The notes below the pieces were generated by a model that was not told where the DNA came from, searched no databases, and was given only the letters and a program-made list of their open reading frames with translations. This document shows, piece by piece, positions 22,274 through 31,306 of a stretch of 48,044 nucleotides of DNA (position 1 is its first letter; the number at the start of each line of letters is the position of its first letter). The position numbers and the translations under genes were made by a program. The stretch comes from Desulfobacterales bacterium. GTDB taxonomy: Bacteria > Desulfobacterota > Desulfobacteria > Desulfobacterales > SKZT01. The stretch is from assembly GCA_018399715.1 (NCBI GenBank), contig JAGYNR010000005.1:1-48044 (forward strand), written 5' to 3'.

Positions 22274-24007
22274 TTGTTTATGAAAATCATAATAGCCAGT
22301 AGAGCCGGCTTTTGTATGGGGGTTCGAAGAGCTGTGGATATGGTTCTGGATGCCTCCAAAAAATATAAAGGACCCATTTATACCTTTGGTTCACTGATAC
22401 ACAACCCGCAAGTGTTGAACGTTTTGTCTGAAAAAGGTATACGGGTGATCAACGAAGTTCCTCGAAAAGGAAAGGGAACTGTTATTATCAGAGCACACGG
22501 TGTGCCGCCGGAAACAACCGCTGATTTGAAGTCAGCCGGATTCGAAGTTTTAGATGCAACCTGCCCGAGAGTTGTCAGGGTGCAGACGATTATAAAAAAG
22601 TATACGAATAAAGGATATGTTGCAATTATTGTCGGCGACAGGGATCATCCGGAAGTTGTCGGCCTTCTGGGATTTGCCGGGAGCAAGGGAGTTGTTATCG
22701 GTGATTTAGCTGAGTTCAGCGCTTTACCTGAATTTCAGGATGCCATTATTATAGCGCAAACCACTCAAAACACAATTCATTATAAGGCTATAAAAGAATA
22801 CGTCCGGGATCGGTTTCCTCACTATAAGATATTTGATACCATTTGCGATTCTACGGGAAAAAGGCAGAAAGAAGTAAGCCGGCTGGCTGCTGAGGTAGAT
22901 GCAATGGTGGTGATCGGGGGTTACAGCAGCGGCAATACAAAGCGGCTTTTTGAAATTGCCTGCAAATCCGGAAAACCCGCATTTCATGTTGAAACCGAAT
23001 CCGATTTAAATGTCAATGCATTAGTTGATGCAAGAAGTATTGGAATTACAGCCGGTGCATCCACTCCCAACTGGGTGATCCGTCGTATATATCGATTTCT
23101 TGAAACCATGCCGATTCCGGGTAAACATTGTTGGCGCCGGATATTGTTTGATGTTTGTCGAAACCTCCTGTATTCCAACACTTATCTTGCTATAGGCGCC
23201 GGATTGATGTGTTATGCCTGCTCCATGCTTCAGGGGATTGAAACGTTTTTTCCCCATGGACTGATACCGGTATTCTATGTGTTTTCCATGCATATTTTCA
23301 ATAATCTGACAGGACGTCGGGCGGATCGTTACAATGATCCGGAAAAATCTGTGTTTTATGATAACCATAAATTTATATTAAAAACCCTTGCGGCCCTTTC
23401 AGGACTGGCGGGTATTGTCGTATCTTTTATGACAGGTTGGCTTGTTTTGTTCCTGTTTCTATTCATGAGCACTTCCGGCATTTTATACAATATAAGACTA
23501 ATTCCGAAAATTTTTACGGGAGGAAAAAGGGGAAGGATAAAAGATATTCCGGCCTCTAAAACCCTGTTGATTGCTATCGCCTGGGGGATTACGAGTGCCC
23601 TGCTTCCAGCCTTTTCGCAGAATGCGTTTTCGGTTTCGGTATCGGGTTTTGTGTTTTTATGGGCGACAGGCCTGATTTTTATTCAGACAGCGTTTTTTGA
23701 TTTGTTAGACATACATGGGGATCGGATGGTGGGACGGGAAACACTTCCGATTGTGATGGGTGAAAATCGTACCCAAAACCTTTTGAATATGATGACATTG
23801 TTGCTAATGGCCATGATGATTACCGGAAGCGTGACGGGCCTCGTTTCTGCTTTGGGTTTTGTTCTTTCCATATGTCCTGTATATTTGCTGATTCTTCTGG
23901 TACTTCACCAAAAGGGTCGCTTGCCGGCCAGCATTCGGTTGGAATTTTTGGTTAAAAGTCATCTGATTTTGATAGGGGGAGTTACATGGGTCTACTCTTT
24001 TTTTTAA
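22274..24007 (+). CDS. ispH: IspH (HMBPP reductase) fused to a UbiA-like prenyltransferase/membrane domain
   Basis: N-terminal IspH: ASRAGFCMGVRRAVDM, LDATCPRVVRVQ, DTICDSTGKRQKEV. C-terminal multi-TM region with NNLTGRRADRYNDP and DLLDIHGDRMVGRETLPIVMG (UbiA-like). Single uninterrupted frame. Confidence 0.88.
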   Translation: MFMKIIIASRAGFCMGVRRAVDMVLDASKKYKGPIYTFGSLIHNPQVLNVLSEKGIRVINEVPRKGKGTVIIRAHGVPPETTADLKSAGFEVLDATCPRVVRVQTIIKKYTNKGYVAIIVGDRDHPEVVGLLGFAGSKGVVIGDLAEFSALPEFQDAIIIAQTTQNTIHYKAIKEYVRDRFPHYKIFDTICDSTGKRQKEVSRLAAEVDAMVVIGGYSSGNTKRLFEIACKSGKPAFHVETESDLNVNALVDARSIGITAGASTPNWVIRRIYRFLETMPIPGKHCWRRILFDVCRNLLYSNTYLAIGAGLMCYACSMLQGIETFFPHGLIPVFYVFSMHIFNNLTGRRADRYNDPEKSVFYDNHKFILKTLAALSGLAGIVVSFMTGWLVLFLFLFMSTSGILYNIRLIPKIFTGGKRGRIKDIPASKTLLIAIAWGITSALLPAFSQNAFSVSVSGFVFLWATGLIFIQTAFFDLLDIHGDRMVGRETLPIVMGENRTQNLLNMMTLLLMAMMITGSVTGLVSALGFVLSICPVYLLILLVLHQKGRLPASIRLEFLVKSHLILIGGVTWVYSFF

Positions 24008-24260: not shown

Positions 24261-25073
24261 GTGTTTTTGAACCAAGAGACCACCAAACGATACAATCCTG
24301 TTGCTGCACTTGGAAGATCGGTCATCTTTCCGATTCAGAATATGGGGAGCATCGCGATTTTCTTTTTTAAGGGATTTTTAAATATCTTTACCATTCCTTT
24401 TCGCCCCGAGAAAATTATTCAGCAGGTGTATTTTATTGGAATGAAATCGATTTTTGTTATATGTCTGACCGGCGCTTTTACCGGGATGGTTTTGGGCCTT
24501 CAGGGATATTACACGCTTTCAAAATTCGGTTCGGAAGGAATGTTGGGAGCAGCGGTGGCTTTGTCCTTGATTCGGGAGCTTGGACCTGTGCTGTCGGCAA
24601 TCATGGTCATCGGAAGGGCTGGTTCGGCCATGGCTGCCGAAATCGGGATTATGAGAATTTCTGAACAGATTGATGCGCTGGACACCATGGATATTAACCC
24701 GATACGTTTTTTGGTAAGCCCCCGGCTGGCGGCATCTTTGATATGTTTTCCGCTTTTGACGGCGATTTTTGATTCCATTGGAATTTTGGGTGGTTATTTG
24801 ACAGGCTCCGGTCTTTTAGGCATTAATTCGGGAGTTTATTTTGCCAGGGTCGAATCCAGTGTGGCTATGGAAGATCTAACCGGGGGATTTATCAAATCCT
24901 TGGTTTTTGCGGTTATCGTTGCGACTATCTGTTGTTTCCAGGGGTACTATACCCATATGAGATCCGAAGGATTCGGAGCCAAGGGGGTCAGCATGTCTAC
25001 CACATCAGCGGTGGTTATTTCCAGTGTGTTGGTTCTGATTTCTGACTATATCCTGACAAGTTTTTTACTGTAA
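24261..25073 (+). CDS. mlaE: MlaE-family ABC transporter permease
   Basis: [60 protein letters not shown]. Confidence 0.93.
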
Positions 25074-25078
25074 AGAAA

Positions 25079-26290
25079 ATGGCCGAGCTGTTGATACAAT
25101 TACAAAATGTCTATAAACGCTTCGGTACCCAGCAAGTGCTCAAAGGTATCTATTTGGATATCTACAAGGGCGAGATTACGACGATTATCGGCGGAAGCGG
25201 CGTCGGCAAAAGTGTGCTTTTAAAGCATATTATTGGCTTGGTAGAACCGGATGCCGGAAAAATTCTGTTGAACGGAAAACCGATTCGCTCCATGAATAAA
25301 AAGGAGCGAGGACGGCTTAAAAGCAAGTTCAGTTATATGTTCCAGGGAACGGCTCTGTTCGATTCCATGACGGTTTTTGAAAACATCGCGCTTCCTCTGA
25401 AAGAAAAAAGCAAAAAATCTTCGGATGAGATAAATTCCAGGGTTAAAGAAAGGATGCAGCAACTGGAATTAGTTGGCAGCGAAGAAAAATACCCATCCCA
25501 GTTGTCCGGTGGAATGAAAAAGCGGGTTGCTCTGGCCAGGGCTCTTGTGATAAATCCGGAAATCGTGCTTTTTGATGAGCCGACAACCGGACTGGATCCG
25601 GTAAAAAAAAATGCTGTTCATAATATGATTTTGGATTATCAGCGTAAATTTGGTTTTACAGCAGTAGTGGTCAGCCATGAAATTCCTGATATTTTCTATA
25701 TTTCCCAACGCATTGCCATGCTGCATGACGGAAAAATAATGGTGGAGGGAAAGCCTGGAGAAATACAGCAATCTTCCGATCCGGTGCTTCAGAGTTTTAT
25801 CCACGGACTTCAAAACCACCGGGAAAATGTCACTGATATGGCATCGTTGCCGCAGGTGGAAACCCGCTTCAAAGAGGCCATGATTCACCTTCAGCGTCAT
25901 AAAATCGCCTTTTCCCTGATCGTACTGACATTAAACAACTTAGATGAACTCAATGAAAAATTGGGATACGTGACCGGACAAGTGGTCTTGAAAAAGTTTA
26001 TGGCAAAGATTCGGGAAAGGATTTCAATTGTCGATACCTGTTCTTTGTATAGTCTGAATAAAATTATGCTGGTGCTTTCGGGAACTGACAAAATACAGGC
26101 GAAGGAGTTTTGTATGCGTTTATCGAAGGAAATCAAGGGAAATGAACTCATCGATGTTCAGTCCTATACGGGATTTTGCTTTTCGATCAGCGCTGGATTC
26201 GCTGAAGCAAAGGAAGGCAGCCCCTTTGGAGCGGTTCTGGTCAAGGCGGAGTCAAGCAGGAATATATTCCTTGAATTTCGTGTATGTTAA
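25079..26290 (+). CDS. mlaF: MlaF-family ABC ATPase with a C-terminal degenerate GGDEF-like domain
   Basis: [43 protein letters not shown]; residues from about 270: [38 protein letters not shown]...SISAGFAEA. Confidence 0.9.
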
Positions 26291-26305: not shown

Positions 26306-26758
26306 ATGAAAAAAACGACTCTGGAAACAGCAGTCGGAATCTTTGTGCTGATCGGTCTTGTCTGTGTCGGTTATTTGACTATCAAACTGGGCAAAATGGA
26401 ACTTTTGGGCGAAAACTATTATTTGCTAAATGCCCGGTTTTACTCGGTAGCAGGCCTGAAAAAAGGTTCTCAAGTGGAGCTGGCCGGAGTTCAGATCGGA
26501 CAAGTAAAGTCGATTGAGCTGGATACAAAACGATATGTGGCCAACGTCAAGCTAAAAATCGAAAATGATGTAAAACTTACCGAGGACTCTATTGCATCCA
26601 TTAAAACATCAGGGCTTATCGGTGACCGGTATATTCAAATTTCACCCGGAGGTTCCGATATTTACCTGGAGCCCGGCGAAACGATCATTGAAACGGAATC
26701 CCCGGTCGATATTGAAGAGCTGATTAGCAAATATGTTTTCGGAGGCGTCGAACAATGA
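26306..26758 (+). CDS. mlaD: MlaD-family MCE-domain protein
   Basis: LETAVGIFVLIGLVCVGYLTIKLGK, FYSVAGLKKGSQVELAGVQIGQVKSIELD, GLIGDRYIQISPGG. Confidence 0.93.
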   Translation: MKKTTLETAVGIFVLIGLVCVGYLTIKLGKMELLGENYYLLNARFYSVAGLKKGSQVELAGVQIGQVKSIELDTKRYVANVKLKIENDVKLTEDSIASIKTSGLIGDRYIQISPGGSDIYLEPGETIIETESPVDIEELISKYVFGGVEQ

Positions 26759-26783: not shown

Positions 26784-27389
26784 ATGTTAAAACGAATTTC
26801 AATCGTTTTTTTAATAACCCTATTGGTAGGTGGCATATCTGATTCGGTTCTGGCTGAAAAACCTGTGGAGGCCATCAGGACATCTGTTGATAAGATCGTT
26901 GAAATATTAAATGACCCGCAATATGATGAGGATTCCCGTAAGGCAGAACAAAAAGAAAAAATGAAACGGGAGATTCAAAAAATATTTGATTTCAAAACCA
27001 TGGCGCGTGGTACGCTCCGTCATTATCAATGGGAGAGCTTTTCAGAACTGCAAAAAGAGGAGTTTATCGGTTTATTTACACAGTTGCTGGGTGATACTTA
27101 TCTGGAAAGAATCCAGGGGGAATACAATGATGAAAAAGTTGAGTATCTGGAACAGCAAATGCTGACCGATACCAGGGCGGTGGTTAAAACAAATATTGTA
27201 AGAGCATCAGAAAGGATACCTGTTGATTACCGGTTGATAAATGAGGACGGCTGCTGGAAAGTATATAATGTATATGTCGAGCGAACGAGCCTGGTTTCCA
27301 ATTATCGGGATCAATTCGGTAGAGTTTTGATGTCCGGCTCGCCGGCGGATTTAATTGAACGATTGAGAGAAAAAGTAAAGAAAAGTTAA
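26784..27389 (+). CDS. mlaC: MlaC-family phospholipid-binding protein
   Basis: Signal peptide; FDFKTMARGTLRHYQWESFSELQKEEFIGLFTQLLGDTYLERI; VYNVYVERTSLVSNYRDQF. Confidence 0.92.
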   Translation: MLKRISIVFLITLLVGGISDSVLAEKPVEAIRTSVDKIVEILNDPQYDEDSRKAEQKEKMKREIQKIFDFKTMARGTLRHYQWESFSELQKEEFIGLFTQLLGDTYLERIQGEYNDEKVEYLEQQMLTDTRAVVKTNIVRASERIPVDYRLINEDGCWKVYNVYVERTSLVSNYRDQFGRVLMSGSPADLIERLREKVKKS

Positions 27390-27401: not shown

Positions 27402-28253
27402 ATGATTCTCCTGGTTCGTCTGGCCGCAATTTGGTTCTTTTTGATGTTAATTGTGCCGGTCTATGCATCTGAGCCGTTACCCGGGAATCGGCAAAACGAT
27501 ACACAGATTGGTTTAAGAATGAGCGTTGTGGCATCGTCCGGAAATTGCTCCGAAACCGTTTTGATAACCCAACGAAATGATTCTTATCCTGACGATTTTT
27601 ATGAGGATGATCTTTACGAAGATGAACTTTATGAAGATGAGCGCCAATATCAAATTGCGGATCCGATCTATCCGTTCAACAAGGCGATGTTTCATGTAAA
27701 CGACAAGCTTTATTTTTGGATTTTAAAGCCTGCGGCTCAAGGATGGCGTGCTGTTGTTCCTGAAATGGCACGAACCGGAATCAAGAATTTTTTTTATAAT
27801 CTGACAACACCGGTCAGGTTGATCAATGCAGTGTTTCAAGCTAAATTAAATAAAGCCGAAGCTGAATTTGCAAGGTTTCTGGTAAATACATCCATTGGGA
27901 TTCTGGGGTTTGGAAATCCTGCTCAAAATTATGATGAGCTGAAAGTCGATCCTGAAGATTGTGGTCAAACGTTAGGTGTTTACGGAGTGGGACATGGATT
28001 TTATATTGTCTGGCCGGTTTTCGGTCCCTCCTCCTTTCGGGATACATTCGGAGTGGTTGGCGATTATTTCATGGATCCCGTTAGTTATGTGAATCCCTGG
28101 GAGGCTTCAATAGCTGCTAGTGTGACTGACAAGGTCAATGCTACCTCTTTTCGGATCGGAGATTATGAATCTTTTAAAGAAGCTGCTCTGTTGCCCTATG
28201 AGGCAATGCGAAATGCTTATGTCCAAAATCGTGACAGGAAGCTTGTCCAATAA
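27402..28253 (+). CDS. mlaA: MlaA/VacJ-family lipoprotein-like protein
   Basis: DPIYPFNKAMFHVNDKLYFWILKPAAQGWRAVVP; FFYNLTTPVRLINAVFQ; GVGHGFYIVWPVFGPSSFRDTFG. Confidence 0.92.
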   Translation: MILLVRLAAIWFFLMLIVPVYASEPLPGNRQNDTQIGLRMSVVASSGNCSETVLITQRNDSYPDDFYEDDLYEDELYEDERQYQIADPIYPFNKAMFHVNDKLYFWILKPAAQGWRAVVPEMARTGIKNFFYNLTTPVRLINAVFQAKLNKAEAEFARFLVNTSIGILGFGNPAQNYDELKVDPEDCGQTLGVYGVGHGFYIVWPVFGPSSFRDTFGVVGDYFMDPVSYVNPWEASIAASVTDKVNATSFRIGDYESFKEAALLPYEAMRNAYVQNRDRKLVQ

Positions 28254-28278: not shown

Positions 28279-29601
28279 ATGTACCTTGATCAATTAATTT
28301 TCAACGCAATCATTGTAACTGTAAATGATAGATTTGATATTTTTGATGACGGCGCACTGGGTATTAAAGACGGCAGAATTGCTTACGTTGGGGAAAAACC
28401 TTCAAATATAAGTTTTTTCAATGCTACAGAAATAATTGATGCCAGAGGCGGTGTTGTTTTACCAGGGCTTATCAATACCCATACGCATCTTCCCATGACC
28501 CTTTTCCGGGGGCTTGCTGATGATCTTCCGTTGGATCAGTGGCTTAATGAGTATATTTTTCCATCAGAAGCCAACCATATATCTTCGGAAACTGCGTATT
28601 GGGGGGCCCTGCTGGCATGCGCTGAAATGATGCTTTCCGGAACTACGACTTGCTGCGATGGTTACTTTTATGAATCGCAGGTGGCTGCAGCGGTTTTTCA
28701 ATCCGGTATGCGCGGCGTATTAGGCCATGGCATTGTTGATTTTCCGGCACCAGGAGTGCCGGATCCCTTAAAAAATGTACAAACTGCTGATCAATATATT
28801 AAAAAATGGGATGGCAAAACCGAGTTCATTAAGCCCTCTATTTTTTGTCATTCCCCCTATACCTGTTCAAAAGATACCCTGAAAAATGCAAAGGCGGTAG
28901 CCCAACAAACAGGTGTTCTGTTTCAAATCCATGCGTCTGAAACCCGTCAGGAGGTAGAAACCTGCATTAAAAGACATGGGTTTAGTCCCATTGGTTATCT
29001 GAATTATATCGGTGTCTTAGATAATCAGACGCTTTTGGCTCATTGTGTATGGATAGACGATGCTGATTTGGACATTATTGCAAAAACCGGAGCTTTTGTA
29101 TCCCATGTCCCGGAAAGTAATATGAAACTTGGATCGGGTACCGCACCGGTAAACCAGATGATTTCAGCGAATATCCCTGTGGGACTGGGAACTGATGGTT
29201 GTGCCAGCAATAACACGCTGGATATGTTCAGAACAATGAATGTCACCGCCAAGCTTCACAAAGTCTGTAACCTCGATCCCACAGTCATGAATGCTAAAAC
29301 GATTCTTAAAATGGCTACCATCAATGGTGCAGCAGCCATTGGTCTTAAAAGTGAAATCGGTTCTCTTGAAATAGGAAAAGCTGCCGATATCCTTATCATA
29401 GATAAACGAAAACCCCATCTGGTTCCAATGTACTCCCCGGTCTCTCATCTGGTATACGCAGTTTCCGGGGCAGACGTACGCCATGTCTTTATTGGTGGAC
29501 AGCAGGTCGTAAAAGACAGAAATCTGCTGACCCTTGATTTGGATGAAATCATAGAAAAAATTATTGCCTTTGCAGGAGTTATTTCTCATGACACTAACTG
29601 A
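28279..29601 (+). CDS. mtaD: Amidohydrolase, 5-methylthioadenosine/S-adenosylhomocysteine deaminase family
   Basis: GLINTHTHLPMTLFRGLADDLPLDQWL, LAHCVWIDDADLDIIAKTGAFVSHVPESNMKLGSG, LGTDGCASNNTLDMF. Confidence 0.9.
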   Translation: MYLDQLIFNAIIVTVNDRFDIFDDGALGIKDGRIAYVGEKPSNISFFNATEIIDARGGVVLPGLINTHTHLPMTLFRGLADDLPLDQWLNEYIFPSEANHISSETAYWGALLACAEMMLSGTTTCCDGYFYESQVAAAVFQSGMRGVLGHGIVDFPAPGVPDPLKNVQTADQYIKKWDGKTEFIKPSIFCHSPYTCSKDTLKNAKAVAQQTGVLFQIHASETRQEVETCIKRHGFSPIGYLNYIGVLDNQTLLAHCVWIDDADLDIIAKTGAFVSHVPESNMKLGSGTAPVNQMISANIPVGLGTDGCASNNTLDMFRTMNVTAKLHKVCNLDPTVMNAKTILKMATINGAAAIGLKSEIGSLEIGKAADILIIDKRKPHLVPMYSPVSHLVYAVSGADVRHVFIGGQQVVKDRNLLTLDLDEIIEKIIAFAGVISHDTN

Positions 29602-31306
29602 AAAAATCCGGGTGGCCCGGGGAAAAAGTCCTTCCGATCTCTTATTGACCAACGCTCGTATTGTAAATGTATTCACCGGTGAAATCGAGGACGGCAATAT
29701 TGCTGTGAGCGATGGAATGATTGTCGGGACAAAGCCCTGTCCTGCGGTTGAGACAATCGATTTAAAGGGGCGCTATGTATCTCCGGGATTGATCGATGCG
29801 CATGTCCACATTGAAAGTTCCATGGCAGATATAACCGGATTTGCACGGGCAGTTGTTCCCCATGGAACCACTACTGTTGTTGCGGATCCTCACGAGATTG
29901 CAAATGTACTCGGTATCAAGGGGATCGAGTATATGCTTCAAACATCCAAAAACCAGCCCATGACCATTTATTTGGGTCTTCCGTCATGTGTTCCGGCAAC
30001 AGATCTGGAAACTTCGGGAGCCAGGCTGTCGGCAGAAGATCTGGCGCCGTTTATGAACCTGAAAAATGTTGCGGTACTGGGCGAAATGATGAATTTTCCG
30101 GGAGTGATCCACGGTGATCCGGTGGTGTTGTCTAAAATGGAAATGGCCCGAAAGGCCGGAAAACGAATTGACGGCCATTCTCCCGGTCTTACCGGCCATG
30201 ATCTCAATGCCTATCTGGTTGCCGGGGCTGCAAGTGATCATGAATGTACCACCGAAAAAGAGGCATGGGAGAAACTGTCTGCCGGAATGTTTATCATGAT
30301 TCGTGAGGGAACCGGCGCCAGAAACCTTCATGATCTTCTCCCCGTGTTAAATCTCCGGACTGCCTCCCGTATTATGTGGTGCACTGATGATCGTCATCCA
30401 CGTGAACTTGTCCATGAAGGCTCTATTGATAGTATGGTCAGAGAGGCTGTTCGCTGCGGTGTCGATCCGGTAACCGCTATCCGAACCGGAACCCTTTCTC
30501 CGGCTGATTATTTTGGATTTCATCATTTGGGGGCCATTGCACCGGGCAGGTTGGCCAATTTGGTGGTTTTTTCGGATCTGCAACATTTTTGTGCGGAAAT
30601 GGTATATCATCAAGGAAAATTGGTGGCAAAAGATGGTGAAATGCTGCCGGAAATACCAAAACCAGCCGCAATTGCAGTGGAAAATTCCATGAATGTCGAT
30701 ATTTTTGCCCTTGATTTCAAAATCCCGTGTAAGGGAAAAAGGGCGCGGGTAATAGAAATTGTTCCCGGTCAAATTGTGACCCGGCAGGTTGTTAAAGAAA
30801 TCTCCTGTAAAGATGGATCGGTTTTGGCTGATACTGATGAAGATATTTTAAAAATGGCTGTGGTGGAACGTCATACGGGTTCCGGAAATATAGGAAAAGG
30901 GTTGGTAAGTGGATTTGGCTTGAAAACGGGTGCATTGGCATCGAGTGTTGCTCACGACTCTCACAATATTATCGTGGTCGGTACACAGGATAGCGATATG
31001 AAATCAGCTGTGGAGCAGGTAATTAAAATGGGTGGTGGATTAGCTGTCGTTGATGGTGACCAAATTGTCGAAACGCTTCCGTTACCGGTTGCCGGATTGA
31101 TGAGCAGTAAACCGGTGAAAACCATTCAAAAACAAATGGATAAACTCCTCAACATCAGCCACAATATCGGATGCCGACTTGATGACCCCTTTATGATACT
31201 TTCGTTTCTGGCACTTCCGGTAATACCCGAATTGAAACTGACGGATAAGGGCTTAGTAGATGTGACAGCGTTTAAACTGGTATCATTGTTTTCGTTCAGG
31301 CACTAA
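29588..31306 (+). CDS. ade: Adenine deaminase (C-terminal residues and stop supplied by a repeat remnant)
   Basis: GLIDAHVHIESSMADITGFARAVVPHGTTTVVADPHEIANVLG, CTDDRHPRELVHEGSIDSMVR; last residues FSFRH* are encoded by the MITE terminus. Confidence 0.92.
   Translation: MTLTEKIRVARGKSPSDLLLTNARIVNVFTGEIEDGNIAVSDGMIVGTKPCPAVETIDLKGRYVSPGLIDAHVHIESSMADITGFARAVVPHGTTTVVADPHEIANVLGIKGIEYMLQTSKNQPMTIYLGLPSCVPATDLETSGARLSAEDLAPFMNLKNVAVLGEMMNFPGVIHGDPVVLSKMEMARKAGKRIDGHSPGLTGHDLNAYLVAGAASDHECTTEKEAWEKLSAGMFIMIREGTGARNLHDLLPVLNLRTASRIMWCTDDRHPRELVHEGSIDSMVREAVRCGVDPVTAIRTGTLSPADYFGFHHLGAIAPGRLANLVVFSDLQHFCAEMVYHQGKLVAKDGEMLPEIPKPAAIAVENSMNVDIFALDFKIPCKGKRARVIEIVPGQIVTRQVVKEISCKDGSVLADTDEDILKMAVVERHTGSGNIGKGLVSGFGLKTGALASSVAHDSHNIIVVGTQDSDMKSAVEQVIKMGGGLAVVDGDQIVETLPLPVAGLMSSKPVKTIQKQMDKLLNISHNIGCRLDDPFMILSFLALPVIPELKLTDKGLVDVTAFKLVSLFSFRH
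31287..31303 (+). repeat. One-ended MITE-like remnant D
   Basis: TGTTTTCGTTCAGGCAC(T), identical to the right end of copy B. Confidence 0.7.

Follow-up and report, generated by a model that had tools for sequence, protein, structure and literature searches.

The mla locus and its fused ATPase

The window, that is the whole 48,044-nucleotide stretch of DNA analysed here, carries on its forward strand genes in the order mlaE-mlaF-mlaD-mlaC-mlaA. The combined ORF and Pfam scan places a 403-aa MlaF ORF (25079-26290) within this order, and mlaE, mlaD and mlaC share an operon with it. The genes and the main parts of MlaF are:

24261-25073, forward strand: mlaE permease, 270 aa (PF02405, E 7.9e-79), without a STAS domain, unlike the second MlaE of the same genome (L003)
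25079-26290, forward strand: mlaF, 403 aa, an ABC ATPase continuing into a degenerate GGDEF-like domain; the closest solved nucleotide-binding domains are the Acinetobacter, E. coli and Pseudomonas MlaF
25079-25813, forward strand: ABC nucleotide-binding domain, with Walker A (GGSGVGKS), LSGGM signature, Walker B and H-loop all intact
25806-25844, forward strand: linker, about residues 243-255, of low model confidence (pLDDT below 50 at residues 244-255 of the full-length model)
25829-26287, forward strand: degenerate GGDEF-like domain, residues 251-403 (PF00990, AlphaFold2, Foldseek)
26306-26758, forward strand: mlaD, MCE domain (PF02470, E 4.9e-23)
26784-27389, forward strand: mlaC (PF05494, E 6.6e-41)
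27402-28253, forward strand: mlaA (PF04333, E 8.5e-66)

Upstream lies a 577-aa ORF (22274-24007, forward strand) in which an enzyme of isoprenoid-precursor synthesis, IspH/LytB (PF02401, residues 5-276), is joined to a membrane prenyltransferase of the UbiA type (PF01040, residues 312-546). Downstream of mlaA are two amidohydrolase-family genes (28279-31306, forward strand), the second an adenine deaminase.

Residues 1-245 of the window MlaF are an intact ABC ATPase (PF00005 at residues 21-170, E 1.1e-35), and the ATPase motifs are invariant across 41 homologs. The MlaF model NF008809 is the best NCBIfam match, yet its 192 bits fall short of the cut-off of 441. For the rest of the protein, the initial annotation had proposed a degenerate GGDEF-like domain, and this is borne out by both profile and fold. 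PF00990 (GGDEF) matches residues 251-391 with an E-value of 3.6e-10 and 40.3 bits (gathering cut-off 23.8), and the extension scanned on its own still gives E 1e-9. The AlphaFold2 model of the domain, run on 21 orthologs, has a pLDDT of 87.2 and a pTM of 0.82, and its best 50 PDB fold matches (Foldseek) are all GGDEF domains (TM 0.67-0.80), so that profile score and fold together identify the extension as a GGDEF domain. The span originally assigned to it (25870-26287) misses its start, which lies at ~25829, about 14 residues earlier. In the full-length MlaF model (pTM 0.58), the linker is flexible and the GGDEF-like domain shows no confident packing on the ATPase.

Distribution, origin and active site of the fused domain

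Searching 243 genomes sampled from the order with a profile of the domain returned 94 places in 90 genomes (87-220 bits), nearly all in ORFs of ~400 aa or longer with mlaE ~1.4 kb upstream, while other GGDEF domains in the same search scored at most 84 bits. Two of the 94 places are divergent (87 and 92 bits), both in genus g5 of family f4. A phylum search of 395 Desulfobacterota genomes added families f106, f132 and f146. The fusion is thus a conserved family, wider than could be seen from the window, and its recurrence in 90 genomes, together with the GGDEF fold of the domain model, rules out chance or an assembly error. Matches at ~93 bits in family f81 proved to be ordinary GGEEF cyclases without a fusion. 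A split gene, with the domain encoded elsewhere where MlaF lacks it, was likewise rejected, such genomes showing only ordinary-scoring GGDEF domains in the order search. The protein-only scan of genome contigs found a single close relative.

Genome G171 has a second MlaF-GGDEF copy (L130:3589-4800, reverse strand) with no mlaE detected alongside; among its neighbours, identified by eye, are a gene similar to GroEL and an ORF that looks like an ABC sugar-binding protein. At L147 (G373:C15:1-5000), the MlaF-GGDEF gene adjoins mlaA and a second partial domain match lies in the same mla cluster, which probably holds two MlaF-GGDEF copies.

When 41 fused domains were compared with 13 ordinary GGDEF domains they formed one group (bootstrap 100), and when the active-site columns were masked they did so again, against 36 ordinary domains (SH-aLRT 100). 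Because the fused domains form one clade, the trees support an origin by one fusion event. On a combined MlaF and MlaE tree of 55 operons, the presence of the domain requires at least nine changes, two of them forced by well-supported branches, and parsimony does not separate gain from loss; within genus g5 some operons have the domain and others lack it.

This patchiness would fit a passive remnant of little function that is decaying, as would the faster evolution of the domain relative to the ATPase in every pair compared. In seven close, non-saturated pairs, however, dN/dS was 0.06-0.33 for the domain (0.02-0.14 for the ATPase), well below 1, indicating that the fused domains are under purifying selection. 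The reading frame is also open in all 98 distinct MlaF-GGDEF members that make up the family set, the basis of all per-residue counts below, and their alignment shows near-invariant columns of Ala, Phe, Gly, Asp and Gln as well as a new conserved loop. Selection and the new loop make decay improbable.

Active-site positions are given in PleD numbering, mapped onto the family through aligned ordinary GGDEF domains. The sites in the window protein are:

26024-26035, forward strand: S-I-V-D at the position of the c-di-GMP I-site RxxD, with the Arg lost (alignment)
26039-26041, forward strand: Cys321, family-specific, in 88/98 members (family alignment)
26051-26065, forward strand: equivalent of the GG[D/E]EF loop, here S-L-N-K-I (alignment to GGDEF domains)
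26111-26113, forward strand: Cys345, family-specific, in 78/98 (family alignment)
26177-26179, forward strand: Cys367, family-specific, in 75/98 (family alignment)
26285-26287, forward strand: Cys403, C-terminal, in 53/98 in register and 71/98 with shifts (family alignment)

As had been read from the sequence, the catalytic loop is replaced: SLNKI (residues 325-329) occupies the GGDEF position, and a GG[D/E]EF loop occurs in 0 of the 98 members. In the family GG becomes G-[L/M/I], and the catalytic Asp/Glu position is held by Asn in 66 members, Asp in 21 and Glu in three. The equivalent of Asp344 is kept in no member (Gln in 86/98), the metal ligand Asp327 is mostly Thr and Lys332 mostly Asp or Glu, neither D327 nor K332 appearing among the commonest residues listed. 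The window protein, with Thr at the metal Asp and Asp at the phosphate Lys, accordingly lacks all three features of an active diguanylate cyclase (loop, metal Asp and phosphate Lys), and of the GTP and metal contacts tested only Asn335 is unchanged. In place of the lost residues, the family has its own loop, R-Y-G-[L/M]-N-K-I (R 91, G 68, L/M 73, N 66, K 69 and I 72 of 98), which reads Y-S-L-N-K-I in the window. Because a different loop is conserved where the catalytic residues are lost, the site has been repurposed, not eroded.

Could the domain still read a nucleotide, as the initial annotation had suggested? For the window protein this is unlikely, given the loss of the GTP site and the replacement of the I-site Arg (R359) by Ser. 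Elsewhere RxxD stands in the I-site register, five residues ahead of the loop, in 59/98 members even though their catalytic residues are gone, and these genomes encode other GGDEF proteins; in such relatives, and only there, c-di-GMP binding is possible. A domain that served as a c-di-GMP receptor tuning phospholipid transport in the RxxD lineages, and lost that role in the window organism, nevertheless strikes us as rather unlikely: the tree requires at least 11 changes at R359, and Asp362 and Arg366 are invariant also in the ordinary GGDEF domains compared, such that partial retention of the motif may merely reflect ancestry.

A thiol- or metal-sensing module would draw on the cysteines at 321, 345, 367 and 403, positions at which Cys is not among the commonest residues of the 13 ordinary GGDEF domains. 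The last two tend to go missing together (64 members with both, 16 with neither and 18 with one only), but this joint loss is not significant on the tree, where phylogenetically independent comparisons are too few, and a buried Cys may be mere packing. We therefore hold such sensing to be a distant prospect.

Absence of MlaB with and without the domain

The initial annotation had further noted that no mlaB (STAS) gene lies in the mlaEFDCA cluster, and had proposed that the extension replaces MlaB. The first point holds, since neither the window operon nor the window contig contains a STAS match. The window genome (77% complete) does encode an unlinked 128-aa STAS protein and a STAS-MlaE fusion. 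The latter belongs to a second Mla/MCE-type transporter (G000:C68; L003, L038), in which the STAS domain is N-terminal on MlaE (380 aa) and is followed by a 251-aa ATPase without an extension. A downstream mlaB is usual in E. coli-type mla operons but not universal, being absent in Rickettsia rickettsii (PMC7790496).

If the domain substituted for MlaB, it would pack on the MlaF helical subdomain, stabilise MlaF and support assembly. Consistent with this, mlaB is missing from every domain-bearing operon examined, and the STAS domain fused to the other MlaE of the window genome illustrates that such transporters can carry regulatory fusions. However, among the loci examined, STAS genes were equally absent from mlaEFDCA operons of the same lineage that lack the domain, the one match (in G070) adjoining an operon on the opposite strand. 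Moreover, PF13466 (STAS_2) found no match in seven genomes with a domain-free MlaF (G005, G051, G133, G073, G142, G047 and G022), nor in the domain-bearing G198 and G541, although a very divergent MlaB could escape the profile. Both kinds of operon occur within genus g5, the GGDEF and STAS folds are unrelated, and the full-length model gives no docking of the domain on the ATPase. Presence of the domain thus does not track absence of MlaB, and replacement of MlaB is rejected as a simple account; we consider it unlikely. Because domain-free relatives are equally without MlaB, its absence is a property of the operon type, uncoupled from the domain.

A separate STAS gene was seen at another kind of locus, in G217 (L151, G217:C14), where the order is ATPase-mlaE-mlaD-STAS-mlaC; the mlaEFDA-type locus of G217 lies elsewhere in that genome.

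A possible accessory role and known counterparts

The GGDEF-like domain begins where the C-terminal extension of E. coli MlaF starts: the linker falls at that position, and E. coli MlaF residue 248 aligns with profile position 245. In E. coli, this extension spans residues 247-269 and makes a reciprocal handshake required for MlaF dimerisation; its deletion abolishes function, which a GCN4 dimerisation domain substantially restores (PMC7367683). GGDEF domains, including degenerate ones, have been tested in E. coli as homo- and heteromeric interaction modules (PMC5635695). The reading we favour, to which we give about an even chance, is that the domain is an accessory pseudo-GGDEF module, acting through protein contacts to pair or regulate the two MlaF subunits. 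A GGDEF fold would have been captured once on MlaF, would have lost its enzyme activity and GTP site, and would then have been retained by selection as an accessory module. Two copies of the domain (one per MlaF), or one copy and another protein, would make contact, and these contacts would set how easily the ATPase subunits pair on MlaE, as proposed for the E. coli handshake and the MetN C-terminal domain.

Against a pairing role, the domain-free MlaFs stop shortly past a shared FIxG motif, most within ~20 residues and so without a handshake-length tail, and these relatives, which also lack MlaB, still keep the operon. Pairing therefore cannot strictly require the domain. The lack of confident packing on the ATPase in the full-length model and the faster evolution of the domain also speak against this role. 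The analysis shows the fusion, its fold, the lost catalytic residues, the single clade, purifying selection, the location at the handshake site and the independence from MlaB; dimerisation, a regulatory role and the nature of any signal are inferred from these. Direct control of an Mla lineage by such a signal, whether c-di-GMP in the RxxD members or metal or thiol state through the cysteines, seems to us improbable; if true, a signal-reading domain would couple the lipid balance of the outer membrane to second messengers or to redox state.

No paper in the library searched describes an MlaF with a GGDEF domain, MlaF and GGDEF or c-di-GMP being co-mentioned only incidentally, and no chain carries the name of an ABC ATPase among those in the PDB that the domain profile matched at E ≤ 0.001. 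The parts are of known kinds; what is new, as far as tested, is that they are combined, that the combination is conserved and that it does not depend on MlaB. Little is understood of how Mla transporters are regulated, even in E. coli, whose transporter needs both MlaB and the MlaF tail for assembly. A conserved family that drops MlaB, and in many members places an inactive signalling domain at the tail position, provides a natural experiment, with and without the domain, even within one genus. An ABC ATPase is an unusual home for a degenerate GGDEF domain, and the fusion offers a way to ask directly whether second messengers act on lipid transport at the outer membrane.

Several known systems offer partial parallels. 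A folded C-terminal domain likewise sits on the importer ATPase MetN of MetNI, where it responds to methionine. The MetN domain is described as dimeric and ferredoxin-like, and is a proposed regulator of the configuration of the nucleotide-binding domains (PMC7367683); MetN is of a different family from MlaF, and the likeness carries no claim of sequence kinship. A GGDEF domain is also attached to a transporter in PDB entries 8qj3, 8qj4 and 8qpf, which we know by PDB title and sequence match only; the chain is deposited as an ammonium transporter, not an ABC transporter. Degenerate GGDEF domains such as E. coli CdgI (PMC5635695) similarly have a dead active site and are used or suspected as interaction modules, but they are not fused to an ABC ATPase, whereas the MlaF domain has an RYG[LM]NKI loop, a truncated C-terminal helix and the family cysteines. 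The nearest counterpart by position is the E. coli MlaF handshake in MlaFEDB (PMC7367683, PMC7790496), on the same ATPase family and likewise attached after about residue 245. There, ~25 mostly extended residues dock at the MlaF-MlaB interface, whereas the window MlaF bears a folded domain of ~150 residues and is encoded in an operon without MlaB.
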